Below, piece after piece: positions 2,721-56,623 of a stretch of DNA of 64,000 nucleotides. A program made the position numbers and the translations under genes. The stretch covers positions 1-64,000 of the forward strand of contig JAAFKA010000019.1 in assembly GCA_013299115.1 (NCBI GenBank). The letters are read 5' to 3'. The notes beneath the pieces are model-generated. The model did not search any database. It worked only from the letters and a program-made list of their open reading frames with translations, and had not been told where the DNA came from. How positions within the stretch are numbered: the first letter of the stretch is position 1; each line of letters starts with the position of its first letter. The DNA comes from Cytophagales bacterium (GTDB lineage: Bacteria; Bacteroidota; Bacteroidia; Cytophagales; Thermoflexibacteraceae).

Positions 2721-3214
2721 AAATCCAACCCTTCTAATTTTTTAGAAAGTTCATAATCAAGCACTTAGCAATAAATTGTATTTTGTTAGCTATCCTGATA
2801 AGCCTGTATAAAAGTATGTTGCCAATGTTTCCACGAAGTAGGCGTAGCTTTGCCTTTGACTTGTTGCCCGATGGCTGTTCTGTATCAGGACAACAAAAAT
2901 GTAGGAAAAAAAAATAAAAAAAAAATGCTTAAAAAACTTGACTTGTTCTATGGTATCAAAAAGCCACAAAAAAAAAATATGCCTAAAAATTTTTTTTATA
3001 GCTTGTTTTTTATAGCACTATTTGCCTCTTGATTATCAGTTTTTTAAGAATAATTGCAAAATAAGTGCTATTTTTTTGATAAAATTTTAATTTAAAGTCA
3101 ATAAAATGGAAATTTATCAAAAGTGTTTTTTATAGGGCTTGATTTTCAACACATAAGGGTAATGCAGAGTTAATGATTTGGTAATGGTTTGTTCGATAAA
3201 GTTTCTCAAAGAGC

Positions 3215-5698
3215 CTACCTTTTCAAAAACCCATGTTCATAAATTTTCGGCTCTATTTTCTTTGCCAGCATATCTAATTTTTCTCTCAAATCAGCTAACA
3301 ACTCATTATATTTTTCGTCTGCACTTTTGCTGTTCATTTTGCCTGCTGCGTTGCGACCTTGAAAATACTCCCGAATGTCATAAAAAGCTGCATCAACTGC
3401 CTTTGGTGGCAAGTTGGCAAGAGGAATTTTATTGATACTCTCATGATAATATGCCCACAATGCCCTGCCTGCCGAAAAAACTGCGGTGGCTTCGGGTGAA
3501 AATTGCAAAGGGGCAACTGTTGTATTTTTAGTTTCTTTTTCAAACAAAACATCAGCACCGGCAATTTTTAGCTTGCCCGCAATGAATTGTGCCATCAGGT
3601 TACTTTCAAATTTTTGGCGTGCTTTTACTTCATGTTCTGTAAAAGGTATCCAATGATTGATGCCATATTTCGAACTAATTTTATTTTGTCCATGAAATAA
3701 CGTGAAAGCCAAACAATCATTTTGAAATTTTTTATCTGTTTGCCAAGTTTCTTGTGGATAGAGAAACTGGTCACGGTCATTTAACCAAGTAGCTGTTATG
3801 GCTTGACGCACTGCAACGTAAACACATACCCATAATAAGTTTTTTTGATTAAATGGAAAATAAATTCCATGTCTTGTACCTCGTATGCTTTGAATGGCAA
3901 TTAAGTTTTTATGTTGAAAATCTGGTGCATCTGCCATTAAAACAGCAACATAATTATTGGAAACATCTTTAAAAGACATTAACCAATCATTAATTTTCCC
4001 TTTTTCATTATCATAGGAATAGAAATATTTATTTCCTACAATATTTTTGGTGGTTTCAAATATGTTAGCCTCTATTTTTTCAAATTTTTCTTTGATTTGC
4101 GTATTCCAAATAAAAAAACCAATCGGAAACTTACCTTTTACATTATCAAAACTATCAGCAGGTATTACAAATAATTTTTCAAGTTTAGCTAAAAAATTAC
4201 TTCTAAAAACTTTTGAATTTGTAGCACTAATAACTTTTAAAGTAGAAAATTGTCCAATAATACAGTCAGGAATTTCAAAATAAATTCTTGCTAAAAATTG
4301 TGCAAAAAGTTCAGGGGCAACTTTTTCTAATTTTGTAGCATATTTATTATGAGTAGTAGAAACTTGTACTTTACTTCGATTGGTACTTACTCTACCGTTA
4401 CTTTCCACATAAGGCGGGTTGATATAAATTACCAACTTCTTGCGTTTTTCGGGATGATTGATAACCTCTTGCAAGTTTTTTGGCAACTTCTCAAAACTAT
4501 CATTCAAAAAATCAAATTGAAAAACATTGTCCTCCATCATGTTTGCCCCGTTTTGTATTCTGTCTTTCATCACGTCCACATCTTGCCTGTCCAGCGTAGA
4601 AGCCCAAATATTATACTTGTTCGTCAGCCCTGTTAGCAAATTGCCTGTGCCTGCTGCACAATCCCAGATGTAATATTCATCCTGCCAATCTTCGCCCAGC
4701 ACTTTTGCCAAATATTCTTGCGACAACTCCACCCAAATTTGTGGCGTAAAAAAGCTACCTTTTCTTTCTCTTACGTCTTGGGGAACTAATAAATCACGTC
4801 TTTCTACAATATAGTCCCAATATTGTTCTTTCGGAGGTCTTTCATATTTATTCCAAAATTGAGTGTGTGCTTTTTGTTGGTCTGTAAAACTTGTTTTGCT
4901 CGAATTAAAAAATCCACTGGTGTCTATCTTTCTATCCAATTCGTAATAATTTTTATGCAACAGCACAAATAATTTTTCTTTAAGGGGTATATTTTCCTGT
5001 GATAATAAATCAGCCAAATAAAAATCTCCGTCTATCAAGCCACTTTTTTTGATTAAATCCCAATTCGCAGCAATAGTTGGCTTCACTGTTTGAAACCATT
5101 TGCTATAAATGCTAATAAAATTATTTTTGTCAATCCTAATTTTTGAAGTTGCAGCATTGCCAACCACAAAATTTGTCTTGATGAATTCACGCAGTTCTTG
5201 GTCGTCTTTTTGGTAGTAAAACAGCAAAGTTTCGTTCTCAATCGTAGTTTTTACCTTGTCATAAACTTGCTTAAATTCTTTGGTTTCGTGGTTAGAAGGG
5301 GCAACATTCCAATTAAAATCATTTTGGTAAAAAATTTCCTGAATAGCATTGTAAGGCAGAAAAGCAATTTTTTCGGCATCAAAAGCACCCAAAAAGGGCG
5401 GAGGCAGCACCTTGTCAAAAGTCCTCGCCTTGCCAATGGTCAATATCAACTGCACCACAGATTTGTAAACGTCAGATACCCCTTTTTTGGCTTCAGCCCA
5501 AAGTAACCCCTGCCCCTCCTCCCCAAAAGGAAGGGGAGTTTTTAGCCCTCCCAGAAGGGGAGGGTTGGGTGGGGTTTGTCTTGGACTTACACAAAAATCT
5601 ATATCACCCATTATTTTTCGGCAATCAAATTCTCCGAAATAATCTTGGGCTACACTATTTTTTAGTTCCTCCTCTCTGCTGTTTAGTTGGTAATTCAT
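3215..5698 (-). CDS. Single-chain restriction-modification-like N6-adenine DNA methyltransferase (copy 1)
   Basis: An 827-residue enzyme likely to methylate adenine in DNA and possibly to cut it, in the manner of Type IIG/IIL enzymes. The methyltransferase core shows motif I as DCAAGTGNLL and the catalytic motif IV as NPPY, preceded by ERKGSFFTPQIW. The N-terminus has D-F-C followed by L-W-A-E-A-K-K, which resembles the D...ExK pair of a PD-(D/E)XK nuclease; this nuclease call is inference. The region after NPPY should hold target recognition. It ends YEHGFLKR. It lies 12 bp downstream of a paralogue (5711-8212) on the same strand, so the two are probably co-transcribed. A palindromic element (5504-5587) is inserted in frame between the D and ExK segments. 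No separate helicase or specificity gene is nearby. Confidence 0.8.
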   Translation of the reverse strand: MNYQLNSREEELKNSVAQDYFGEFDCRKIMGDIDFCVSPRQTPPNPPLLGGLKTPLPFGEEGQGLLWAEAKKGVSDVYKSVVQLILTIGKARTFDKVLPPPFLGAFDAEKIAFLPYNAIQEIFYQNDFNWNVAPSNHETKEFKQVYDKVKTTIENETLLFYYQKDDQELREFIKTNFVVGNAATSKIRIDKNNFISIYSKWFQTVKPTIAANWDLIKKSGLIDGDFYLADLLSQENIPLKEKLFVLLHKNYYELDRKIDTSGFFNSSKTSFTDQQKAHTQFWNKYERPPKEQYWDYIVERRDLLVPQDVRERKGSFFTPQIWVELSQEYLAKVLGEDWQDEYYIWDCAAGTGNLLTGLTNKYNIWASTLDRQDVDVMKDRIQNGANMMEDNVFQFDFLNDSFEKLPKNLQEVINHPEKRKKLVIYINPPYVESNGRVSTNRSKVQVSTTHNKYATKLEKVAPELFAQFLARIYFEIPDCIIGQFSTLKVISATNSKVFRSNFLAKLEKLFVIPADSFDNVKGKFPIGFFIWNTQIKEKFEKIEANIFETTKNIVGNKYFYSYDNEKGKINDWLMSFKDVSNNYVAVLMADAPDFQHKNLIAIQSIRGTRHGIYFPFNQKNLLWVCVYVAVRQAITATWLNDRDQFLYPQETWQTDKKFQNDCLAFTLFHGQNKISSKYGINHWIPFTEHEVKARQKFESNLMAQFIAGKLKIAGADVLFEKETKNTTVAPLQFSPEATAVFSAGRALWAYYHESINKIPLANLPPKAVDAAFYDIREYFQGRNAAGKMNSKSADEKYNELLADLREKLDMLAKKIEPKIYEHGFLKR
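5504..5587. repeat. In-frame palindromic element in RM enzyme copy 1
   Basis: Encodes residues 38-65 (SPRQTPPNPPLLGG...GQGL). Arms built from CCTCCCC and GGGGAGG runs form an imperfect inverted repeat. The paralogue carries a different palindromic element at the same protein position. No stop codon or frame change results. Confidence 0.75.
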
Positions 5699-5710
5699 CT
5701 TTTTTGTATT

Positions 5711-8212
5711 TTATTTTTTCAAAAACCCATGTTCATACACTTTTTCGGCTATTTTTTCTCCCAAAACTTGCAAAGCCTCACGCAAATTGCCTATCAACTC
5801 ATTATATTTTTCGTCTGCACTTTTGTTGTTCATTTTGCCTGCTGGGTTGCGACCTTGAAAATAGACTTTTATGTCATAAAAAGAGGCATTCATCAATTCC
5901 TTAGTAATATTTTGCAAAGGCAATTTATTGATATTTGCATGATAATACTGCCACACCTTTTTTCCTGCCTCAAAAACTGCGGTGCTTTCGGGTGAAAATT
6001 GCAAAGGTGCAGCAACTGTATTTTTGCGGTCTTTTTCAAACAAAGCATTGCTATTTTCACTCGTAATTTTGCCTTGTAAAAACCTGACTATCAAATTACT
6101 TTCAAATTCTTGGCGTGCATTTACTTCGTCTTCGGTAAAAGGCAACCAATGGTTTATGCCATTTTTTGTGGTAATCTTATTTTGCCCATGAAAAAGTGTA
6201 AAAGTCAAACAATCATGTTGAAATTCTTTATCTATTTGCCAAGTGTCATGTGGATAGGTGAATTGGTCTCGGTCATTGAGCCAAGTGCATTTAATACAAT
6301 GACGAACAGCAAAATAAATACAAGCAACTAATATATTGTGCTTGTTCAGTCCAATAGTTGATAAATGGCTGGTAGGTTTGAAAGAACTAACTCTTACTTG
6401 GTTATTGTTTTGAAAATCATTACCCAAATAGGCTAAGAAACCAATCCAGTTATTTTCAAGATTTGTATATTGCTGTATCCATTTATTGATATACTCCTTT
6501 TCGGAGTAAGCAATAAGTGTTTTATTTCCTATAAATTTATTGTTTTTGTCATAGATAGCTGTTGTAATGTTAGTAAACAATTCCTTTTGTTGGGTTTGCC
6601 AAATCATAAAACCTATTGGAAATTGCCCAGCCACATTATCAAAAGTATCAGCAGGGACAATAAACATTTTTTGTAATTTAGCTAAAAAGAATTGACGAAA
6701 ACTAATAAAATTAGCAGATTGTAAGATTTTCAGTGTTGAAAATTGCCCAATAACAGCCCCATCAAGTTCTTTGTAAATACGCACCAAGAACTGAGCAAAT
6801 AACTCATTTTTTGCCTTTTTTAAAATACTCCCATACTTTTCATAAATTTTTGTTTCCTTAGAAACATCTATTTTTTTGCCACCCTGCCCTATTCCATCAG
6901 TAGCTTCTGCATACGGAGGATTGATATAAATGAGCAATTTTTTCCTTTTCTCTGGACTATTTACAATTTCTTGCAACTTAGCAGGCAATTTTTTAAAATC
7001 ATCATTCAAAAAATCAAACTGAAATACATTGTCCTCCATTAGATTTGCACCGTTTTGAATACGGTCTTTCATCACATCTACGTCTTGTCTATCCAAAGTA
7101 GAGGCAAAAATTCGCCTTTTATTTGTCAGTCCTACCAATAAATTTCCTGTTCCTGCTGCACAATCCCAAATGTAGTATTCATCTTGCCAATCTTCACCTA
7201 AAACTTGTGCTAAATATTGTTTGGAAAGGTCTGCCCAGATAACGGGCGTAAAAAAACTGCCTTTTCTCTCCCTCACGTCTTGCGGAACTAACAAATCTCG
7301 TCTTTCTACAATATAATCCCAATATTGTTCTTTCGGAGGTCTTTCATACTTGTTCCAAAATTGGGTGTGTGCCTTTTGCTTGTCGTTGAAAAATGTTTTT
7401 TTGGTTTGAAACATTCCCATTTCGTCAAGAATTTTGTCTAATTCATAGTAATCTTTTTTGAGCAACACATACAAATTGTCTTTCAAACTTTCATTCTCTT
7501 GCGAAAGCAAATCTGCCAAATAAAAATCTCCGTCTATGATATTATTTTTCTTAGCAACTTCCCAATTCAATACGATTGTGGGCTTGACCGCAGCCAACCA
7601 CTTGGTATAAATCGTAATGAAATTATTTTTGTCAATCCTGATTTTGGAAGTTGCCACGTTGCCAACCACAAAATTTGTCTTGATAAATTCACGCAATTCT
7701 AAGTCGTCTTTTTGGTAGTAAAACAGCAAAGTTTCGTTCTCAATCGTAGTTTTTACCTTGTCATAAACTTGCTTAAATTCTTTGGTTTCGTGGTTGGAGG
7801 GGGCAACATTCCAATTAAAATCATTTTGGTAAAAAACTTCCTGAATGGCATTATAGGGCAAAAAAGCAATTTTTTCGGCATCAAAAGCACCCAAAAAAGG
7901 AGGAGGCAACACCTTGTCAAAAGTACGAGCCTTGCCAATAGTCAAAATCAACTGCACAACAGATTTGTAAACGTCTGATACGCCTTTTTTGGCTTCTGCC
8001 CAAAGCCCCCCAGCCCCCAAAGGGGGAGTAGCCCCCCTGCCCCCCAAAGGGGGAGTAAATGCGTCAAAAACTCCCCCTTTGGGGGGCTGGGGGGCTTGGC
8101 TTGTTACACAAAAATCCACATTGCCTATGATTTGCGTGCAATCAAAAGCTGCAAAATAGTCTTGGGCTACTTTGTTTTTTAGTTCTTCTTCTCGGCTGGT
8201 TAGGTAGGACAT
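5711..8212 (-). CDS. Single-chain restriction-modification-like N6-adenine DNA methyltransferase (copy 2)
   Basis: A paralogue of the 3215-5698 gene with the same layout: MSYLTSREEELKN start, D-F-C...LWAEAKKG nuclease-like pair, ERKGSFFTPVIW, motif I DCAAGTGNLL, NPPYAE and the YEHGFLKK end. I take the ATG at 8212 rather than the in-frame start 24 bases upstream, because it aligns with the start of copy 1. Residues of about 70-200 are almost identical in the two copies, down to the DNA, while the part after NPPY has drifted strongly. That pattern suggests gene conversion of the backbone plus diversification of the presumed target-recognition region. It is the first gene of a two-gene unit. A palindromic element (8006-8104) lies in frame between the presumed catalytic D and ExK. 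Confidence 0.8.
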   Translation of the reverse strand: MSYLTSREEELKNKVAQDYFAAFDCTQIIGNVDFCVTSQAPQPPKGGVFDAFTPPLGGRGATPPLGAGGLWAEAKKGVSDVYKSVVQLILTIGKARTFDKVLPPPFLGAFDAEKIAFLPYNAIQEVFYQNDFNWNVAPSNHETKEFKQVYDKVKTTIENETLLFYYQKDDLELREFIKTNFVVGNVATSKIRIDKNNFITIYTKWLAAVKPTIVLNWEVAKKNNIIDGDFYLADLLSQENESLKDNLYVLLKKDYYELDKILDEMGMFQTKKTFFNDKQKAHTQFWNKYERPPKEQYWDYIVERRDLLVPQDVRERKGSFFTPVIWADLSKQYLAQVLGEDWQDEYYIWDCAAGTGNLLVGLTNKRRIFASTLDRQDVDVMKDRIQNGANLMEDNVFQFDFLNDDFKKLPAKLQEIVNSPEKRKKLLIYINPPYAEATDGIGQGGKKIDVSKETKIYEKYGSILKKAKNELFAQFLVRIYKELDGAVIGQFSTLKILQSANFISFRQFFLAKLQKMFIVPADTFDNVAGQFPIGFMIWQTQQKELFTNITTAIYDKNNKFIGNKTLIAYSEKEYINKWIQQYTNLENNWIGFLAYLGNDFQNNNQVRVSSFKPTSHLSTIGLNKHNILVACIYFAVRHCIKCTWLNDRDQFTYPHDTWQIDKEFQHDCLTFTLFHGQNKITTKNGINHWLPFTEDEVNARQEFESNLIVRFLQGKITSENSNALFEKDRKNTVAAPLQFSPESTAVFEAGKKVWQYYHANINKLPLQNITKELMNASFYDIKVYFQGRNPAGKMNNKSADEKYNELIGNLREALQVLGEKIAEKVYEHGFLKK
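8006..8104. repeat. In-frame palindromic element in RM enzyme copy 2
   Basis: About 99 bp with arms AAGCCCCCCAGCCCCC...AAAGGGGG and CCCCCTTTGGGGGG...GGGGGGCTT and a GCGTCA motif in the centre. It is translated as APQPPKGG...TPPLGAGG (residues 37-69). It belongs to the same family as the elements in metH and in the Type ISP gene. Confidence 0.85.
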
Positions 8213-8303
8213 AGATTTTCTGTAAATTACTTGCAAAATTATGAAATCTTTTGGTAATAAAATTTTTTCTTACTTTTTTAATCAAAAATCCAATTTTTAG
8301 ATT

Positions 8304-8311
8304 TACCTTTG
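8304..8311 (+). promoter_or_regulatory. -7 box for ahcY
   Basis: TACCTTTG matches the Bacteroidota TAnnTTTG consensus and lies 39 bases before the ATG. No clear TTG element is visible at the expected upstream distance. Confidence 0.5.
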
Positions 8312-8349
8312 CAGCGAAAAATTAAAAAAACACTTTTAATAGTCTAACA

Positions 8350-9657
8350 ATGGTCGATACATTCGTAAAATTCAAGGTAAAAGACATCAAATTAGCCGAG
8401 TGGGGCAGAAAAGAAATCCGTTTGGCAGAGGCAGAGATGCCCGGCTTGATGGCATTGCGTGAGCAATATGGCAAAAGCCAACCTTTGAAGGGAGCAAGAG
8501 TGGCAGGTTGCTTGCACATGACTATCCAAACTGCGGTTTTGATAGAAACTTTGGTGGCTTTGGGAGCAGAAGTTACTTGGTCTTCTTGCAATATTTTCTC
8601 TACACAAGACCACGCAGCAGCAGCCATTGCAGCAGCAGGTATCTCGGTGTATGCTTGGAAAGGACAAACAGCAGAAGAATTTGATTGGTGTATAGAACAA
8701 ACCTTGTTCTTTGGCGAAGACCGCAAACCTCTCAATATGATTCTCGATGATGGTGGCGACTTGACTAATATGGTGTTTGACAAATACCCTGAATTGATTA
8801 AAGGAATCAGAGGTTTGTCAGAAGAAACAACCACTGGCGTACACCGTTTGTATGAAAGAATGAAAAAAGGCACGTTGTATATGCCAGCTATCAACGTAAA
8901 CGACTCGGTTACAAAATCTAAATTTGACAACAAATATGGTTGCCGCGAGTCTTGCGTAGATGCTATCCGCAGAGCAACCGACATCATGATGGCGGGCAAA
9001 GTAGCCGTAGTAGCAGGTTATGGTGATGTGGGCAAAGGTTCGGCAGCTTCGTTGAGAGGGGCAGGTGCAAGAGTTATTGTAACAGAAATAGACCCAATTT
9101 GTGCTTTGCAAGCCGTAATGGACGGTTTTGAAGTTCGTAAAATGGACGAGGCAATGAAAATTGCAGACATCGTTGTAACAGCAACAGGTAACTTGGGTGT
9201 GGTAGGTGCAAAACACTTTAAAATGGCGAAAGACAAAGCTATTATCTGCAATATTGGTCACTTCGATACAGAAATAGATATGGCTTGGTTGAACACCAAC
9301 TACGGTCATACAAAATCTGAAATCAAACCACAAGTAGATTTGTACGAAGTAGATGGCAGAGATATTATTGTATTGGCAGAAGGTCGTTTGGTAAACTTGG
9401 GCTGTGCAACAGGACACCCTTCGTTTGTAATGTCTGCTTCTTTCACCAATCAAGTATTGGCTCAATTAGAATTGTGGGAAAATCACGCAAAATACGAAAA
9501 CAAAGTTTATACCTTGCCTAAACACTTAGACGAAAAAGTTGCACGTTTGCACTTGGCTAAGGTTGGTGCAGAAATAGACGAATTGTCAGGCGAGCAAGCA
9601 GAATACATTGGCGTAACAGTAAAAGGTCCGTTCAAATCTGAAATGTACCGTTACTAA
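8350..9657 (+). CDS. ahcY: Adenosylhomocysteinase (S-adenosyl-L-homocysteine hydrolase)
   Basis: Cleaves S-adenosylhomocysteine, the by-product of methyl transfer, to adenosine and homocysteine, with tightly bound NAD+. The 435 residues include the substrate-domain signature running through [15 protein letters not shown], the [10 protein letters not shown] segment, the Rossmann motif GYGDVGKG (about residue 223) and the C-terminal FKSEMYRY end that closes the NAD site. Length is normal. The ATG at 8350 fits the family start, and a TAnnTTTG box precedes it. A strong hairpin follows the stop. The homocysteine product feeds methionine synthase, encoded further along at 40640-44992. No riboswitch was seen in the 113-bp upstream gap. 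Confidence 0.97.
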
Positions 9658-40637: not shown

Positions 40638-40748
40638 ACCTACACCAAACTCCCCAGCCACCTTTCCACTTCCCTCAATTCCATACCTTTCCGTTGGGCA
40701 TAATCTTCGAGTTGGTCTTTGGCTAACTTGCTGATACCGAAATACTTA
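40638..40748. repeat. metH 3' end: parent copy of the island repeats (R6)
   Basis: Codes for the final residues [12 protein letters not shown]...ERWLGSLV and the TAG. The reverse complement of this block is what R1-R5 repeat. This is the only copy in a working metH frame. Confidence 0.85.
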
Positions 40749-43700
40749 CTTTCAGGGTGCGAAAAATACCAACCTGAAACCGAAGCCGCAGGATACATTG
40801 CCAAACTTTCTGTGAGTTCAATACCAATTTTGGCAGTTACGTCAAGCATTTCAAATAATTTCCACTTTTCTGTATGGTCAGGACAAGCTGGATAACCAGG
40901 GGCAGGACGAATTCCCTCGTATTTTTCGGCAATTAACAAGTCATTTTCCAAGTTCTCGGCAGGTGCATAACCCCAAAACTCCTTGCGTACTCTTTCGTGC
41001 ATCCGTTCTGCAAATGCCTCCGCAAATCTATCGGCTAAGGCTTGCAACATAATTGCATTATAATCGTCAAGGTCAGCTTTCAATTTATCGACAACAGGCT
41101 GCATTCCTAAACCCGAAGTAACCGCAAAACCTCCAATATAATCAGCTTTTCCGCTTGATTTTGGTGCTACGAAATCCGCTAAACAGAAATTAGGCAAGTT
41201 TTTAGCTTTTTGGTTTTGTTGGCGAAGATGACATAATTTTTTCCAAACCGTTGTGCGTGTTTCGTCTGTATAAACCTCGATGTCATCACCCACAGAGTTT
41301 GCAGGATAAAAACCAATTACGCCACTTGCTTTTAACAATTTTTCATTCAAAATACGGTTAAGCATTTTCTTTGCATCTGCAAATAAATCTGTTGCTTGTT
41401 TGCCCACAACTTCATCTTCCAAAATTGCAGGAAACTTGCCCGCCAATTCCCAAGTCTGAAAAAACGGTGTCCAGTCAATATATTTTGCTAATTCCACCAA
41501 ATCATATTCCACAAAATATTGATTACCAACAACTTTTGGTTTTCTCATTTCCGAAGTTTCCCAATTTATTTGTACCGAATTTTGTCTTGCTTCTGCTAAG
41601 GAAATCAGTTTTTTATCTGCTTGACGACTTGCGTGGTCAATTCGCAAAGTTTCGTATTCTTGGCTTATGGCTGCTGCAAATTCGTCTTTTTTATCAGGCG
41701 TAAGCAAACTTTGTGCAACAGGCACAGCACGACTTGCATCTAAAACGTGAATTACAGGCGTATCTATTTTTGGCGAAATTTTAACCGCAGTGTGAATACG
41801 TGAAGTTGTTGCACCACCAATTAACAAAGGAATGTTGATATTTTGGCGTTTCATTTCACTTGCCACATACACCATTTCGTCCAAAGAAGGCGTAATCAAG
41901 CCACTCAAACCAATAATATCTACCTTGTGCTTTTTGGCTTCTGCTAATATTTTTTCGCAACTCACCATTACGCCTAAATCTATTACTTCAAAATTATTGC
42001 AAGCCAAAACCACACCTACAATATTTTTTCCAATGTCGTGAACATCTCCTTTTACGGTTGCCATTAAAATTTTACCTCCCCCACTAAGCCCCCCACCCCC
42101 CGAAGGGGGAGTTTTTGACGTATTAACGTCAGTTCCCCCTTCGGGGGTTAGGGGGCTTGGCATTTGGCTTTTTTTCTTCTCAGCCTCTATGTACGGAAGG
42201 AGGTAAGCCACAGCCTTTTTCATCACCCTTGCAGATTTTACAACTTGGGGCAAAAACATTTTTCCTGCACCAAATAAATCACCCACCACATTCATTCCGT
42301 CCATTAATGGACCTTCAATCACTTGCAAAGGTCTTTCAAAATTCTGACGGGCTTCCTCAGTATCTACATCTACAAAAGCATCAAAACCGTGAACTAAGGC
42401 GTGGGCAAGACGTTGATTGATTGGCAAATTTCGCCAAGCTAACAAATCACTATCATCAATTTTTTTGCCACCACCTTTATATTTTTCGGCAAGTGTTACT
42501 AATCTTTCCGTTGCGTCATCTCTGCGATTTAACAAAACATCTTCTACGTGTTCAAGCAAATCTGCGGGAATTTCGCTATACACTTCTATCATACCTGCAT
42601 TGACAATGCCCATTGTCAAACCTGCTTTTATGGCGTGATACAAAAATGCGGAGTGCATTGCCTCACGCACTCTATTATTTCCTCTAAATGAGAATGAAAT
42701 ATTACTCACACCACCCGAAACCTTTGCGTATGGCAAATTTTGACGTATCCAACGAGTTGCATTAATAAAATCTACTGCATAATTATTATGTTCCTCAATA
42801 CCTGTGGCAACAGTCAAAATATTAGGGTCAAAAATGATGTCTTGCGGAGGAAAACCAACTTTATGAACCAAAATATCATAGCAACGCTGACAAATTGCAA
42901 TTTTTTTCTCAAAAGTATCAGCCTGTCCTTCTTCGTTAAATGCCATTACAATAACCGCAGCACCATATTGACGAACTAAATTTGCTTGCTCTATAAATTT
43001 TGCCTCTCCTTCTTTCAAAGAAATTGAATTGACAATTCCCTTGCCTTGCAAACATTTTAAACCTGCCTCAATAACAGACCATTTTGAACTGTCTATCATA
43101 AAAGGCACTTTTGCAATATCGGGTTCTGCTGCAATTAAGTTCACAAATTTTGTCATACAAGCCTCACTATCCAACATTCCCTCGTCAAAATTGATGTCAA
43201 TAACTTGTGCCCCATTCTCAACTTGTTGGCGTGCAACTGCTACGGCTTCTGTAAATTTTTCTTCTTTAATCAACTTCGCAAAAGCTGCTGAACCTGTTAC
43301 GTTTGTTCTTTCACCCACATTGACAAACAAAGTTTCTTCTGCAATAATGAAAGGTTCTAAACCTGATAAATTCATAACAGGTTGTAAATCAGGTATTTGT
43401 CTTGGTGGGTGTTTTTCTATGGCTTCTGCAATAGCACGAATATGGTCTGGCGTTGTTCCACAGCAACCACCCAAAACATTAACTAAACCATCTTTTGCAA
43501 AAGGCTCAACCAATTTTGACATCATGGCTGGCGTTTCGTCATATTGCCCAAATTCGTTTGGCAAACCTGCATTTGGATACGCAGAAACAAAAACATTAGC
43601 AACTCTCGATAATTCTTGTATGTAAGGTCGCAATAAGTCCGCACCTAAGGCACAATTTAAGCCAACACTCAACAAATTTGCGTGAGAAACAGAATTCCAA

Positions 43701-44992
43701 AAAGCCTCTGTAACTTGTCCCGATAAAGTACGACCACTTTGGTCGGTAATGGTGCCAGAAACCATGATGGGAATAACTAACTCCACGACAGCCCCCAAAC
43801 CCCCAAAGGGGGCTTTTGACGTTATTGTGTCAAGAATTTTCTGTAAAATATTATCTGTATCACCAATTACTTCATTATTGGTAAATCTAATTACTTTAAA
43901 TCCATTTTGATTTAACCATTGTGTTCTAATTTCATCTTGTTCCTGATTTTCAGGTAATTGATGAATTAAACCATCTATTTCAATAATCAAATTTTCGTTT
44001 AGGCAAACAAAGTCCGCAATATATTGTCCTATAATATGTTGCCTCCTAAATTTGTAACCTCCTAATTTTTTGCCACTCAACAATTCCCACATAATTTCCT
44101 CTGCTTGGGTAGGAAACTTTCTATGTTTTTCTGCATACTCTTTTAGTTTTGGATAAAACGCAGAATTTGCTGTTTCATAGCCATATTTCAGCCCCCCAGC
44201 CCCCAAAGGGGTAGTTTTTGACATTATTTCGTCAGTTCCCCCTCTGATGATTAGTGAGCTTACTCCCTTCTCCCCCTTTGGGGGTTGGGGGGCTTTTGTT
44301 CCCCCTTCGGGGGTTAGGGGGCTTAAGAATTTCCTTAAATATTCCTCATTTTCACGTAATTCGTAATTTTGAATTTGCAATTTTTCATTTAACTCATTCA
44401 CATATTTTTCAATAGCAAACAAGGCAGCCTTTGCATTTAGCGTATCAAAAATAGTTTCGACAAGCAAAATATCAGAACCACCCTCAATAAGTCCTTTTGT
44501 TTGCGTGTAATATGCATCGACAAGTTGGTCAAAAGTAATAGCCCTAAAACCGGGGTCATTCACATCAGGAGAAAGCGAAGCTGTACGGTTGGTGGGACCT
44601 AATGCACCCGCCACAAAACGAGGTTTATCAGGCGTGAGTTTATTCATTTTATCAACTTCCTGCTTTGCCACTTTTGCCGACTCATAGTTGAGTTCATAAG
44701 CCAAATGTTCCATTTCGTAGTCCGCCATCGCAATCCACGTACCACTAAACGTATTGGTTTCTACGATGTCTGCCCCAGCTTCAAGGTACAAACGATGAAT
44801 TTCGGCAATAATTTGCGGTTGGGTAATGGAAAGCAAATCGTTATTTCCCTTCAAATCTTTGTGGAAATCTTTAAATCTTTCGCCTCTATAATCTGCTTCA
44901 TTCAGGTTATAGCGTTGTATCATCGTACCCATTGCCCCATCGAGGATTAAGATGCGTTGGCGTAGCAGGTCTTGTAGTTTTGATTTTATCAT
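40640..44992 (-). CDS. metH: Cobalamin-dependent methionine synthase MetH, with in-frame insertions
   Basis: Transfers the methyl group of methyl-tetrahydrofolate to homocysteine through cobalamin. Order: homocysteine domain (1-204, then from 405; zinc cysteines in GLNCALG and [12 protein letters not shown]), folate-binding domain ([11 protein letters not shown] onward), Cap, cobalamin domain ([15 protein letters not shown], the D-x-H-x-x-G lower ligand), and the SAM-dependent activation domain ending [20 protein letters not shown]. At 1450 residues it is about 220 longer than usual. About 200 extra residues (205-404), including a DUF559 endonuclease domain, sit in the homocysteine domain, and about 25 extra residues precede the cobalamin domain. 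Both are in frame and bounded by palindromic elements. The last 35 codons are duplicated five times in the island downstream. It follows ahcY and ftcD functionally in one-carbon metabolism. Confidence 0.95.
42085..42158. repeat. In-frame palindromic element in metH, before the cobalamin domain
   Basis: AAGCCCCCCACCCCCCGAAG...TTTTTGACGTATTAACGTCA...CTTCGGGGGTTAGGGGGCTT. Long outer arms and a nested TGACG/CGTCA centre. Translated as [20 protein letters not shown]; it lies in the linker before [16 protein letters not shown]. Confidence 0.9.
43781..44380 (-). mobile_element. DUF559 endonuclease domain inserted in frame in metH, between palindromic elements
   Basis: About 200 codons absent from ordinary MetH proteins, placed between [13 protein letters not shown] and [20 protein letters not shown], which are contiguous in other MetH proteins apart from a short loop. 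The core (about 43823-44155) reads [45 protein letters not shown] and [11 protein letters not shown], the order of DUF559/VSR-like PD-(D/E)XK nucleases, with the D and E-x-D residues present. It has no stop and no start of its own. On both sides lie elements of the CCCCC...GGGGG palindrome family (43790-43833 and 44190-44323, the latter compound, with two to three arms). No intein splicing motifs are visible, so it is probably retained in the mature protein. Confidence 0.85.
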
Positions 44993-51394: not shown

Positions 51395-54300
51395 TTACAG
51401 CATAGGCAAACTTCGCACTATCTCCACTGTTTCTATGCTCAACCGAATGACCCGCAGCAGCAATTCGTAGATGTATTTTTCGTTGCCTGTTTCTGCTGCC
51501 CAGTCGTTGGGGTTGTTGCGAATACCACTTTCTTTGTGGACTGTTGGTTGGTATCTTTCCATAATCCACTCTATGGCACTTTTGCCGTTTACCACATAGT
51601 CGTAAGCCTGCAAAGGGATATTTTCTATGCTGATTTGGCTGTTGTAATGAATAACGGTTTTGTCGTATTTTTCGGCTTTTTCCTCCGTACTTGGCAAGCC
51701 ATCGGGTGGCTTCGAGCCACCCGATGGCTGTGTTTTAAGTTTGCCAAAACGCATTTTTTCTACTTGGTAGTTTACCGTATTGCCTGCTGCAAAAATGGTG
51801 ATAACTTCTTTGGCAAATTCTCCTGTTTCATAATTCAGATGCAAGGCTGCTAATTGGCGACCTGCTCGGCTAAAAGCCCAAAAATCTTTACTCTCCTCGA
51901 CCAAAGGCAGGCGGGGCAGCATTTTTTTGAGGTCATTGGCGTATTTTTCCCGATAACTCTCACTGTGCAAAGCACCATAAACATAATAAAAAATGTCTTC
52001 TTTTTGCACGCTGCTGCCATAAGCCTTGTGTGCCAAATCTAATATAAAATCTGAAATGCCATCACGCCGCATGAGCTCATGGGTCTTGCCTCCCTCAAAC
52101 AAGTTAGCATTTTGAATAGCAACCTCCTCGTAATAGTAAAGTGGGAAACATTGACAAGCTGAAAGCATACCCAAATCTGGAAGTACATTTGTTATCAATG
52201 TAGAAAAGTCTTTTGTATTGCCAATTCCAGGCAAACAAATTAGTTTGTTCTCTTTCCCAATAGGGAAAAAACTATCCAATCTTGAAACTGTATTATTTAA
52301 TTCACGAGAAAAGTAAACATTTTGTTTAAAGAAAGGTCTATACATAGCCTTTGTAATACTTGCAACGTCAAATTTTTTCGTTTTACCTGTGGCAGCATCA
52401 GTGCGAAATGCACGTGACCAACTAATATTTTTATCATCATAAGTAATAAAATCCTCTATATTTAGACTTGGGTTTACTATTTTCTTTTCTTTGAAAAGAG
52501 ATGATTGTTCATTGAAAAAATTTATTGTTGTTTGTACGTTATTTTCTACATTGGCTTTATTTGAATTATAAACCCATACATCACGAGAGGTTTCTAAACC
52601 TCTACAATAGATTTCAGAGTAAAAAAATGTATTTTTATCTTCTCTTTCTCCCAACGCCAAAAAACTTTCAAATCCTTCTGTTCGTTGGCTTATCCAGTCT
52701 GCGTGTTCGTTTGGCTGGAGAGTTTGCCAATTGATGTTTTCTATGCTCTTAAATTTTGTGAGCAAAGCCAATTTTTCTTCTCTGTTTAGGTAGTCGCCTA
52801 TGTCGTGGTAGTAGATAATAGCCCCTGAAGTAAGCCCCCCAACCCCCGAAGGGGGAGTTGACGAAAGTACGTCAAAAGTTCCCCCTTCGGGGGTTAGGGG
52901 GCTATTTGTTCCCCCTTCGGGGGTTAGAGGGCTATTTGTTAGGGGGCTATTTGTTCCCCCTTCGGGGGTTAGGGGGCTTTTCACCAAAAACGTAATGGTG
53001 ATGGGAGTTCTTGACCCTAAGCCAAATACGTTTCCACTTTCTTTTCTGCGTAATTCTCCATTTGTTCGTGCATTGCCTCTTAGGTTAAAGACATAAATAG
53101 CCGAAAATTCTTTTTCTAAGCATTTGCGAAAGCCGTCTGTTGCGTTGCCATCGAGCCATGAGCCGTTGCTCACAAAGGCTATGATGCCCCCTGCCGAGTC
53201 TAACCTGTCTGCCGACCAACGAAAAGCCTTGATGTAGGAGTCGTACAAAGAGTTTTTATTGGTAGCTTCTGTATGAACTGCGTAGGTTTTTGCTATTCTT
53301 TCATTCAATTTTTCGTATTCTTGGTTTTGTGCGTTGTCGTTTGCAGATTTCTGCCCTACGGAGTAAGGCGGATTGCCCATGATAATACGCAGGGGTGCTT
53401 TCTTTTGGGCTATTACTCTTTCAGAGTTTTGCTGCAATTTGTCTGAAAACAGCTTGTCTGCATCATCGGTTTCGCCCAGCTGAAAGGTGTCTGTGAGGAC
53501 TATGCCGTTGAAAGGGGTGTAAACAAGCCCCACGTCAAGCCCCCCAACCCCCAAAGTAAGCCCCACCCCAACCCTCCCCAAAGGGGAGGGAGTTGACGTT
53601 GTTTCGTCAGTTCCCCCTTTGGGGGTTAGGGGGCTGCTTGTTAGGGGGCTTTGGGTTTGGTTTTCGTGGTAGGCATTTTCTATGTTAATGGCAGCAATGT
53701 AGTATGCCAATAGCACAATTTCGTTTGCGTGTAGTTCTTTGGTATATTTTCGGTGCAGGTCTTCAGGTTTTATGAGTTTGTTTTGCAATAGTCGGGTCAT
53801 AAACGTACCAGTGCCAGTAAATGGGTCGAGGATATGCACGTTTTCGTCTGTTAGGCTGCGGTCAAACTCTTTTTTGAGCAAGCTCTCTACCGAATGGACA
53901 ATAAAATCTACGACCTCGACGGGTGTATAGACAATTCCGAGTTTTTCGACCATCTTTGGGAAGGCAGTCTTAAAAAACTTGTCGTAGAGTTCTACAATAA
54001 TTTTTTGTTTGGCTGCTGCATTGTCCAGTCCTGCTGCTCTTTTCTTTACCGATTCATAAAACTTTTCCAAAATTTCTGTTTCTTTTTCGAGTGCTTGGTT
54101 TTCCAGCACTTCCAGCATGGTTTGCATGGCAAGAGAAACAGGGTTGTTTTTCACAAAAGAATAATCACTAAACAGGGCATCGAACACAGGTTTTGTAATG
54201 AGGTGTTGCGACAGCATTTCCACAGCTTCGCCTGCCGAAATAGCGGGGTTTATGTTGCGTTGCAAGCCTGTTAGAAACTCTGTAAAGGTGTTTTTATGTT

Positions 54301-56623
54301 CTCCCTCTTGCGAAATCAGCCTGTTTATTCTCTCCACGTGCCTCTCCGCTATGAGGGCTACATCTTTTGCCCACTGCTCCCAGTATCGTCTGTCGCCTAC
54401 TTTTTGCACCATTTTTGCATAAAATATACCCTGAATCACAGGATAATCAATCACAGTTTGCTTAAATTGGTCGTGAGTCGAGTTCGGTTGGTTGTCTTTT
54501 GGCGTGCCGTTGCCTTGCGTGTCTGCATTTACTACCTTGATTTGTGCAGGTTTTTTTCGGTTGAGTTCTATTTGGTTAATGGTGGCGTTGAATCTGTCGT
54601 CATGCGCCCGCAAGGCGTTGAGTACCGACCAAACTACTTGGTATCTGTTGTTGTCGTCTAAGGCTCTATCAGGCTCCACGTCTGTCGGTATGACAACGGG
54701 AATGATAATGTAGCCATATTTTTTGTTGGGTGCTAACCTCATGACTCTACCTACCGACTGCACCACATCTACCTGTGAATCTCGTGAAGCCAAAAAGATA
54801 ACGGCATCAAGCGAAGGCACATCTACGCCCTCACTCAAACATTTGGCATTGGTGAGTATCCTACATTCTTGGTTGTCTGTTGGCGTTTCTTTGAGCCAAT
54901 TCAATAAATCTTCTCTTTGTGGGGCAGTCATGGTGCCGTCCACGTGGTCTGCTTTTACTTTTGCCACAGATTCTTGCTTTCCCTTTGGCAAGTTTTCGTA
55001 ATAAGGCTTTTCTAAGTTGTTAAAAATATTTTTTACTCTTTTAGAGTCTTTTATTTTGCTGCAAAAAGCCACTGCCCGCCGCATAATGTTGGGGTCTGTT
55101 TTCAGGATATGGTCTTCCTCGTTGTCTATGATGTGTTTAGACAGGGCATTGATACAACCAATGAGTTTGGAGGCATCGTCAGTCGTAATTTCGTTTTCAT
55201 CGTCAGCCACCATGTTCTGCACAGCTTCGGGTATATCTGCTTGGCTCATGGTGAGTATCAGCACTTTATAATCACTCAACAGCCCTTGCTCTACTGCATT
55301 TCCAAATCCGATTCTGTATATTTCCTGCCCATAAATTTTTTCGTCGTCCATCGAGCAAAGCACCGCCTCATAACGGTCTGCCTTCGATTTGGCATCATCT
55401 GCATAGAGTTTGGGCGTTGCCGTCATGTAGAGCCGTTTCTTTGCCTTTATCAGTTCGTTGTCGTGTACTTTCACAAAGGCGGAGGAGTCCTCATCGGCAA
55501 GGGTAATGCCTGTGGTTCGGTGGGCTTCATCGCAGATGATGAGGTCGAAGATGCCAAGCCCCCCAGCCCCCAAAGTAAGCCCCCTAACCCCCGAAGGGGG
55601 AACATTTGACGTGATTTCATCGATTCCCCCTTCGGGGGTTAGGGGGCTTATTGCTTTTGCAATGACCTCAATAGATTGATAAGTAGAAAAGACGACGGTC
55701 ATACCTTTTTTGTTGTCTTGTGCTGCCAATTCAAATTGTCGCAAAATATCGGGTACGTGTGTAGATGCGGGCAAAGCTAAATCAATGATAGAAAATCCAT
55801 CACTATCCTCGTTTTTCGTTCTTTTTTTACTCACATTGGCATCAGAGCATATACAAATCGGAAAAATAGGTTGCTCGGCTTCGGCTATCCATTCTCTCAA
55901 ACTCTGCCCTAAGAGTGCAATAGAAGGCACTAAAAACAGCACCAATCCTTTGTGATTAGTTTCTTTTTCGGCAATTTTCAGCGAAGTAAAAGTTTTGCCT
56001 GTGCCACAAGCCATGATAAGTTTTCCTCTTTCTTGGGTCTTAAAATAGTTGTTTGCAGCCAAAATAGCCGTTTCTTGGTGAGTTTTCGGACTTTTTTTGA
56101 TAGCCAACAACGCTGCTTTGCCCTCCAAACCCTGTGCTATTTTCTCCCAATCTACTGCTGCTTGGTTTAGCTGCCCAGCGGAGATTCGAATCACTTCGGG
56201 GTTTTGGTTTTTGATAGCCTCCTCCGCATTAGTTCCCCATTTATTGGTGGTGCTTATCCAGAGTCTTTTGGCAAAGCCTGTGGTTTGTAGCTGTTCGTTT
56301 TTAAATTGTCGGCTGGAAGTAGAGAGAAAAGTGTCTATTGCGGGTTTGTCTATGGTGGTTGCCTCGTCATAGCATTTGCACTGCACCGCCCAGTAGTCGC
56401 CGCCTTGTGTGAGGGCTACCAAATCTATGCCTGTGTCTTTGCCTCCCAAGTCGTTTTTGGCGGGAAAATCTGCCCAGAGCCAAACTTTTTTGAATAGATT
56501 GGCATAGAGTCTGTCCGTTTGCAAATAACGCAACATCAGGCTTTCAAACTTCGCCCCTTTGTCTTGTTCGGAGGTAGCCTGTTGGCGAATGGTATCGAGG
56601 ATTTGGGCAAATGATTGGGGCAT
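51395..56623 (-). CDS. Type ISP restriction-modification enzyme (single polypeptide)
   Basis: Nuclease, helicase and methyltransferase in one chain, like LlaGI/LlaBIII. Order: Mrr-like nuclease (1-165; GIDLVALTQGGDYWAVQCKC, the D...QxK site), helicase (Walker A ACGTGKT at about 205-211, DEAH at 365-368, MTATP, SVGRVMRL as motif VI), a coupler, and an N6-adenine methyltransferase (DPFTGTGTFMTRLL as motif I, NPPYSVGQK as motif IV near 1083). The rest should recognise the target. At 1742 residues it is longer than known relatives of about 1570. Most of the excess is four in-frame palindromic inserts: three CCCCC/GGGGG elements and one REP hairpin. The inserts fall in loops: between motif Ia and DEAH, in the methyltransferase, and near the end. 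The ATG at 56623 fits. It has no accompanying gene, as expected. Confidence 0.9.
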   Translation of the reverse strand: MPQSFAQILDTIRQQATSEQDKGAKFESLMLRYLQTDRLYANLFKKVWLWADFPAKNDLGGKDTGIDLVALTQGGDYWAVQCKCYDEATTIDKPAIDTFLSTSSRQFKNEQLQTTGFAKRLWISTTNKWGTNAEEAIKNQNPEVIRISAGQLNQAAVDWEKIAQGLEGKAALLAIKKSPKTHQETAILAANNYFKTQERGKLIMACGTGKTFTSLKIAEKETNHKGLVLFLVPSIALLGQSLREWIAEAEQPIFPICICSDANVSKKRTKNEDSDGFSIIDLALPASTHVPDILRQFELAAQDNKKGMTVVFSTYQSIEVIAKAISPLTPEGGIDEITSNVPPSGVRGLTLGAGGLGIFDLIICDEAHRTTGITLADEDSSAFVKVHDNELIKAKKRLYMTATPKLYADDAKSKADRYEAVLCSMDDEKIYGQEIYRIGFGNAVEQGLLSDYKVLILTMSQADIPEAVQNMVADDENEITTDDASKLIGCINALSKHIIDNEEDHILKTDPNIMRRAVAFCSKIKDSKRVKNIFNNLEKPYYENLPKGKQESVAKVKADHVDGTMTAPQREDLLNWLKETPTDNQECRILTNAKCLSEGVDVPSLDAVIFLASRDSQVDVVQSVGRVMRLAPNKKYGYIIIPVVIPTDVEPDRALDDNNRYQVVWSVLNALRAHDDRFNATINQIELNRKKPAQIKVVNADTQGNGTPKDNQPNSTHDQFKQTVIDYPVIQGIFYAKMVQKVGDRRYWEQWAKDVALIAERHVERINRLISQEGEHKNTFTEFLTGLQRNINPAISAGEAVEMLSQHLITKPVFDALFSDYSFVKNNPVSLAMQTMLEVLENQALEKETEILEKFYESVKKRAAGLDNAAAKQKIIVELYDKFFKTAFPKMVEKLGIVYTPVEVVDFIVHSVESLLKKEFDRSLTDENVHILDPFTGTGTFMTRLLQNKLIKPEDLHRKYTKELHANEIVLLAYYIAAINIENAYHENQTQSPLTSSPLTPKGGTDETTSTPSPLGRVGVGLTLGVGGLDVGLVYTPFNGIVLTDTFQLGETDDADKLFSDKLQQNSERVIAQKKAPLRIIMGNPPYSVGQKSANDNAQNQEYEKLNERIAKTYAVHTEATNKNSLYDSYIKAFRWSADRLDSAGGIIAFVSNGSWLDGNATDGFRKCLEKEFSAIYVFNLRGNARTNGELRRKESGNVFGLGSRTPITITFLVKSPLTPEGGTNSPLTNSPLTPEGGTNSPLTPEGGTFDVLSSTPPSGVGGLTSGAIIYYHDIGDYLNREEKLALLTKFKSIENINWQTLQPNEHADWISQRTEGFESFLALGEREDKNTFFYSEIYCRGLETSRDVWVYNSNKANVENNVQTTINFFNEQSSLFKEKKIVNPSLNIEDFITYDDKNISWSRAFRTDAATGKTKKFDVASITKAMYRPFFKQNVYFSRELNNTVSRLDSFFPIGKENKLICLPGIGNTKDFSTLITNVLPDLGMLSACQCFPLYYYEEVAIQNANLFEGGKTHELMRRDGISDFILDLAHKAYGSSVQKEDIFYYVYGALHSESYREKYANDLKKMLPRLPLVEESKDFWAFSRAGRQLAALHLNYETGEFAKEVITIFAAGNTVNYQVEKMRFGKLKTQPSGGSKPPDGLPSTEEKAEKYDKTVIHYNSQISIENIPLQAYDYVVNGKSAIEWIMERYQPTVHKESGIRNNPNDWAAETGNEKYIYELLLRVIRLSIETVEIVRSLPML
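51698..51728. repeat. REP hairpin inside the Type ISP coding sequence
   Basis: GCCATCGGGTGGC, loop TTCGA, GCCACCCGATGGC. The 25-base core ATCGGGTGGC..GCCACCCGAT equals the hairpin at 39932-39968 next to the RAYT gene. It is translated as PSGGSKPPDG without a break in the frame. Confidence 0.9.
52831..52979. repeat. In-frame palindromic element 1 in Type ISP gene (compound)
   Basis: A full element (AAGCCCCCCAACCCCCGAAG, centre TTGACGAAAGTACGTCAA, closing arm) followed by two or three extra half arms CCCCCTTCGGGGGTTAGGGG. Translated as repeats of [10 protein letters not shown]. Confidence 0.9.
53524..53652. repeat. In-frame palindromic element 2 in Type ISP gene
   Basis: AAGCCCCCCAACCCCCAAAG with centre TTGACGTTGTTTCGTCAG and closing arm CCCCCTTTGGGGGTTAGGGG. 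It includes a nested CCCTCCCC/GGGGAGGG pair. It lies in the methyltransferase part, before LVYTPFNGIVLTDTF. Confidence 0.9.
55556..55650. repeat. In-frame palindromic element 3 in Type ISP gene
   Basis: AAGCCCCCCAGCCCCCAAAG, then a second arm, centre TTTGACGTGATTTCATCGA, closing arm CCCCCTTCGGGGGTTAGGGG. Translated as [20 protein letters not shown]; it separates helicase motif Ia from the DEAH box. Confidence 0.9.

Follow-up and report, generated by a model that had tools for sequence, protein, structure and literature searches.

The two paralogous restriction-modification (RM) enzymes A and B of the window (the whole stretch of 64,000 nucleotides analysed here) carry in-frame inserts that are ordinary members of an unusual palindrome family. 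This family is genome-wide and has a nuclease-bearing form, which the preliminary description of the two genes had overlooked. Its palindromes lie in frame within protein genes, the same sites are found in an empty, a small and a full state, and one clade of DUF559 domains is paired with one type of palindrome. From these observations we infer, with a probability of roughly 0.65, that the inserts represent small, non-autonomous derivatives of palindrome-bounded, in-frame, unspliced mobile elements whose full form bears a DUF559 nuclease.

Two RM enzymes carry palindromic inserts at one position

Enzymes A and B are 68% identical to each other and are located, together with their inserts, as follows.

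3215..5698 (-): RM enzyme A, type IIG-like single-chain restriction-methyltransferase with an in-frame insert (alignment, fold match)
about 5504..5577 (-): palindromic insert of enzyme A, SPRQTPPNPPLLGGLKTPLPFGEEGQGLL, CCCTCCC-n-GGGAGGG type
5711..8236 (-): RM enzyme B, paralog of A with an in-frame insert (alignment, AlphaFold2 model, fold match)
about 8003..8097 (-): palindromic insert of enzyme B, TSQAPQPPKGGVFDAFTPPLGGRGATPPLGAGGL, three type-A units (AAGCCCCCYNNCCCCCRAAGGGGG), one of them inverted

Both inserts are Pro/Gly-rich, are encoded by GC-rich DNA and lie between DFCV and LWAEAKKG, at the single shared position that had been described. The palindromic character of the DNA was confirmed by folding and by core counts. 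The enzyme B insert, whose DNA consists of three GC-rich palindromic units (AAGCCCCCCAGCCCCCAAAGGGGGAGT ... inverted), folds with -73.9 kcal/mol (z = -5.1 against shuffled sequences), while the folding of the enzyme A insert is weaker when compared to its shuffles (z = -2.0). Allowing up to two mismatches, the core CCCCCAAAGGGGGA is found 16 times in the window for 0.27 expected, and the core of the enzyme A insert twice for 0.00 expected; all the C5-N3-G5 cores of the window are within ORFs. An Rfam scan of window positions 3000-9000 gave no match. PADLOC returned weak matches only for the RM enzymes, and the weak Rab GTPase matches obtained with an RM profile against PDB sequences (E about 1e-3) were judged spurious.

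The insert is probably tolerated beside the nuclease site

The earlier proposal that DFC and AEAKK belong to a nuclease site is supported by alignment and by structure prediction, which had been named as its test. D33, E73, K75 and Q87 are invariant in an alignment of 73 members (homolog loci and genome-search matches), and both AlphaFold2 models bring these catalytic residues together on adjacent strands. In the model of enzyme B, a strand (34-37) is followed by a low-confidence loop, by the strand that contains ExK (68-74) and then by a helix with Q87. When the full-length model was used in a fold search, the type IIG enzyme BpuSI was closest and DrdV came next, with the type ISP enzyme LlaBIII and the type IIL enzyme MmeI lower; the N-terminal domain alone gave weak matches only, BpuSI being the first (E = 0.04). 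Judged by sequence and model, the enzymes combine in one chain the type IIG features of a D...ExK nuclease and a SAM-dependent N6-adenine methyltransferase with NPPY. They share with BpuSI, DrdV and MmeI the order of an N-terminal nuclease-like domain, the methyltransferase and a C-terminal region, but differ from these type IIG/IIL enzymes in having a palindrome between D and ExK and in matching no Pfam or NCBIfam family at E 0.1.

According to the models, the insert most likely hangs out of a hairpin, in a loop that is probably solvent-exposed. It is probably tolerated, with the nuclease not switched off, since it is predicted to be disordered and to lie between two strands, beside a confidently modelled core. 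In the aligned homologs, the loop from DF[C]V to WAEAK is highly variable, with 8-29 aa in the absence of a palindrome and 28-41 aa in its presence.

What occupies the insert site in paralogs and homologs

The genome (G000) encodes seven RM paralogs and all seven have palindromes at the insert site, in mosaics that differ from copy to copy. In the sister species (G001), two of the three informative copies have palindromes and one is empty; a unit resembling the enzyme A insert is nested between type-A units in the copy of contig C310. Altogether, palindromes occupy the RM site in 9/10 copies of the genus versus 0/66 other aligned homologs, and more than 60 homologs elsewhere display a short variable loop at this position. 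No DUF559-bearing element was seen at the RM site among the copies examined. The idea of repeated hits at the site stands in part: the differing mosaics and palindrome families, nesting included, speak for it, although gene conversion between paralogs also contributes. Synonymous identity beside the RM insert is 0.87 as compared to 0.57-0.69 in insert-free paralog sets, a modest and one-sided difference that is only suggestive of co-conversion.

Two of the seven paralogs (contigs C22, L177, and C74, L178) have a frameshift at the insert, beyond which the frame is open to the usual C terminus, and the C74 paralog contains a 26-nt unit in tandem copies. These frameshifts may represent phase variation or decay, and assembly errors in hairpins are also possible. 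They bear on the view, put forward when the inserts were first described, that the insert inactivates the nuclease and leaves the methyltransferase in place. The position between D and ExK and the two frameshifted copies are in keeping with this, but the catalytic residues are invariant, the loop naturally varies from 8 to 29 aa, the core is modelled with confidence next to a disordered insert, and the frameshifts would also remove the downstream methyltransferase unless translation restarts; we consider such inactivation quite improbable. The same two copies and the tandem units of one of them could point to a contingency locus, in which changes of the 26/27-nt unit or of C/G runs in the palindrome array would switch the enzyme on and off. 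With one assembly per species, no variation within a population was seen, and the same elements are found in essential genes such as that of LeuRS, where selection for switching off is unlikely, which makes this explanation improbable too, if slightly less so. Finally, the N-terminal region is nearly identical between the paralogs, and identity is raised there even in insert-free paralog sets, as would be expected if the RM paralogs had inherited a low-complexity loop long ago and gene conversion had since kept their copies alike. That the insert is such a loop and not mobile DNA is nevertheless hardly credible in view of the same palindromes in unrelated genes throughout the genome and of the empty copy in the sister species.

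A genome-wide family of palindromes tolerated in reading frames

About 175 type-A units are present in the genome, where a reversed control pattern gives 0, and beyond the genus such units are rare in the same bacterial family. Among 86 sampled clusters (the window and contigs picked by DNA pattern alone, the embedded fraction thus resting on sampled loci), 76 (88%) are in frame within ORFs of at least 200 aa. The fraction is close to the typical coding density of bacteria, and it therefore shows tolerance in frame and not a preference for genes. The usual peptide of the embedded clusters is SPLTPEGGT...TPPSGVGGL; an idealised 73-nt element has one open frame per strand, both encoding peptides of this type, and stops in the other frames.

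Type-A units also occur in two genomes that have no PF04480 match, G069 with 323 units (94% complete assembly) and G041 with 25 units. Only 5/25 of the type-A clusters sampled in these two genomes (L435-L451 for G069) are embedded in ORFs, so that the type-A family can live mostly outside ORFs. DUF559 has either been lost there or is not the mobiliser: the palindromes can be maintained without it, and their spread may be due to something else.

A DUF559 nuclease occupies the same sites in MetH and in related bacteria

Further members of the family are found in two other proteins of the window, one of which contains the nuclease-bearing form.

40640..44992 (-): MetH, 1450 aa, two in-frame insertions, a nuclease-bearing element and a small palindrome
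43789..44324 (-): full element at MetH site 1, DUF559 (PF04480) nuclease ORF with type-A palindromes on either side
43823..44149 (-): DUF559 domain, complete (114 bits), the only PF04480 match in the genome
42086..42158 (-): small type-A palindrome at MetH site 2
51395..56623 (-): type ISP restriction-modification enzyme, 1742 aa, three sites with palindromic inserts, four consecutive cores at one of them
52832..52979 (-): palindromic insert cluster of the type ISP enzyme
53537..53636 (-): palindromic insert of the type ISP enzyme
55556..55649 (-): palindromic insert of the type ISP enzyme

PF04480 is present in 53/118 genomes of the order, with many matches inside ORFs of 1000-1600 aa. DUF559 is inserted in frame in LeuRS (at two sites), IleRS, MutS, HsdR and a type ISP enzyme and is fused to the C terminus of PurL and of N-formylglutamate amidohydrolase, usually flanked by palindrome peptides; further sites are in MetH, in IleRS and in a helicase-nuclease and an N6-methyltransferase-type RM protein, these last two identified by eye. 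The element of another type ISP enzyme (L287) was set aside, as its site differs from the insert sites of the type ISP enzyme in the window. A tail-insertion mode is represented by the PurL fusions of three genomes of one genus (L261, L265, L282) and by N-formylglutamate amidohydrolase (L272).

When orthologs are compared, LeuRS site 1 is empty (13 aa), has a palindrome only (G000, G001) or contains DUF559 (G035, G076, G094). The same three states are found at LeuRS site 2, which is empty (11 aa), palindrome-only in G000, G076 and G105 and DUF559-bearing in G030, G031, G046, G086 and G091, and at MetH site 1, which is empty (15 aa), palindrome-only in G001, G006 and G011 and DUF559-bearing in G000. 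At MetH site 2, the small palindrome of G000 has its counterpart in DUF559-bearing elements of G046, G086 and G115. Palindrome-only and DUF559-bearing states thus occur together at four sites, three of which also have empty orthologs, while the MutS of G001 contains DUF559 and that of relatives is empty. As in homing elements, occupied and empty alleles exist at one site and the nuclease ORF is either present or lost. Pfam scans of ten DUF559-bearing host proteins detected DUF559 and the domains of the hosts, but no Hint (protein-splicing) domain. A search of the open-access literature found nothing relevant that links DUF559 to palindromes, mobility, insertion or transposons, and as far as this literature goes, the association of DUF559 with palindromes is unreported.

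One DUF559 clade is paired with type-A palindromes

In a tree of 37 DUF559 domains, the bootstrap of which is not fully settled, the domains from MetH site 1 of G000, LeuRS site 2 of G091 and MetH site 2 of G046 and G086 form one clade with support 99/99. Type-A palindromes are present on both sides of 4/37 domains, and these are exactly the members of the clade (p = 1.5e-5; Fisher p = 1.7e-4 with near-identical rows collapsed). Units of the CCCCTCTCC-n-GGAGAGGGG or CCCCTCCTT type accompany many of the other DUF559s, and at some DUF559 genes the palindromes are weak or one-sided. The clade covers three bacterial families and three gene sites, which indicates that the element can switch from one site to another instead of keeping to a single target. 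All four genomes of the clade are among the 13/118 that have type-A units (p = 9e-5). Because several loci have palindromes in common, comparing inverted flanks across loci was not informative as a control; near and far stems were compared instead, and the stems near DUF559 exceed those in distant flanks (p about 1e-5). Two stand-alone DUF559 genes (L259, L281) have very long perfect stems of the CCCCTCTCC type nearby (24-25 bp).

Proposed mobile element and other possible mobilisers

We propose that the full form consists of a DUF559 nuclease ORF (Vsr-like PD-(D/E)XK) between inverted palindromic units. The nuclease would recognise or cut its cognate palindrome or the target site, and during repair the element would be copied to an allelic or a new site. 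Once the nuclease ORF is lost, a small palindrome would be left, and in the RM enzymes this small form would be tolerated in the variable loop between the two catalytic strands, where recombination among paralogs may have shared and remodelled it and sometimes broken the frame. That the elements move, that DUF559 drives them and that the enzymes are active is inferred here; neither a target-site duplication nor a new insertion at strain level was seen. DUF559 is a strong but unproven candidate for the mobility enzyme of the palindrome family. The broader proposition, that DUF559 nucleases drive unspliced, translated, palindrome-bounded elements which enter essential genes in frame, are tolerated as loop peptides and leave coding palindromes behind, seems to us evenly poised.

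DUF559 could instead travel as a passenger, or be a selfish gene in its own right that often lands in palindrome-rich spots, with another enzyme or hairpin replication or recombination spreading the palindromes. The many type-A units of G069 and G041, both without a PF04480 match, would agree with this, as would the weak or one-sided palindromes at some DUF559 genes. That a single clade of DUF559 is flanked on either side by its cognate type-A palindromes, and that small and full forms occupy the same sites, argues against it, and we regard a passenger role as unlikely, while giving it some weight. The palindromes might also be REP/BIME-like units that a RAYT (Y1 transposase) moves and that are merely tolerated in genes. 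Their GC-rich inverted pairs resemble REP/BIME, the genome has three Y1_Tnp genes, and the units sampled in G069 and G041 are mostly outside ORFs. However, the surroundings of all three Y1_Tnp genes, out to about 1.5 kb, contain neither a C5-N3-G5 nor a CCCTCCCC-type core, and 88% of the sampled G000 clusters are in frame within ORFs. Since none of the three genes is flanked by cognate palindromes, a Y1 transposase was rejected as the mobiliser, and we see little likelihood in this explanation.

Relation to known palindromic and homing elements

Coding palindromes have reportedly been known in Rickettsia since 2000. The Rickettsia palindromic elements (RPE) are palindromic DNA of about 75-150 nt that is in frame in unrelated protein genes and is translated (reviewed in PMC2229807, PMC10969869). 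An RPE-bearing Gmk is active (PMC2229807), while the mechanism of RPE mobility is unknown, and how such small elements move is given as a future question in the same review. The G000 palindromes are likewise repeated and in frame in unrelated protein genes, but the family is GC-rich, belongs to a Bacteroidota host, has 76 of its 86 sampled clusters in ORFs and shares its sites with a nuclease-bearing form. We therefore call it RPE-like and not RPE, the host phylum being different and the likeness being one of description. An RPE-like lifestyle is now seen in Bacteroidota, where the sites of the palindromes also harbour a candidate mobility nuclease. Our proposal, if true, would explain by what mechanism in-frame palindromes of the Rickettsia kind come to lie in coding sequences. 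It would also give a role to DUF559, which is widespread and still of unknown function in the Pfam annotation. Having a single candidate master copy next to numerous small ones, G000 makes the question of mobility directly testable.

PD-(D/E)XK and EDxHD are among the six homing endonuclease families listed in PMC6083498. The homing cycle of inteins and introns resembles the present case in that a nuclease ORF resides in an element within conserved genes and a given site can be full, without the nuclease or empty; in contrast, the present element is bounded by palindromes, no splicing domain was found in it, and one lineage occurs at several sites. REP/BIME with RAYT (PMC3733652) share with the family the many GC-rich inverted pairs of short palindromic units, but the G000 units are in frame in genes and no RAYT association was found.

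A caution applies to PEGG/PPSG-rich loops in such proteins, which are to be read as element peptides and not as features of the enzyme. Repeated ORFs about 2-4 kb apart (...LFNGKELQT), RHS-core-like by eye, are present on contigs C41, C47 and C59 of G000 (L243, L244, L245, L251). In about ten of them a PPSGAGG palindrome stands just before the LFNGK motif, making these ORFs a second paralogous family with inserts at the same site.
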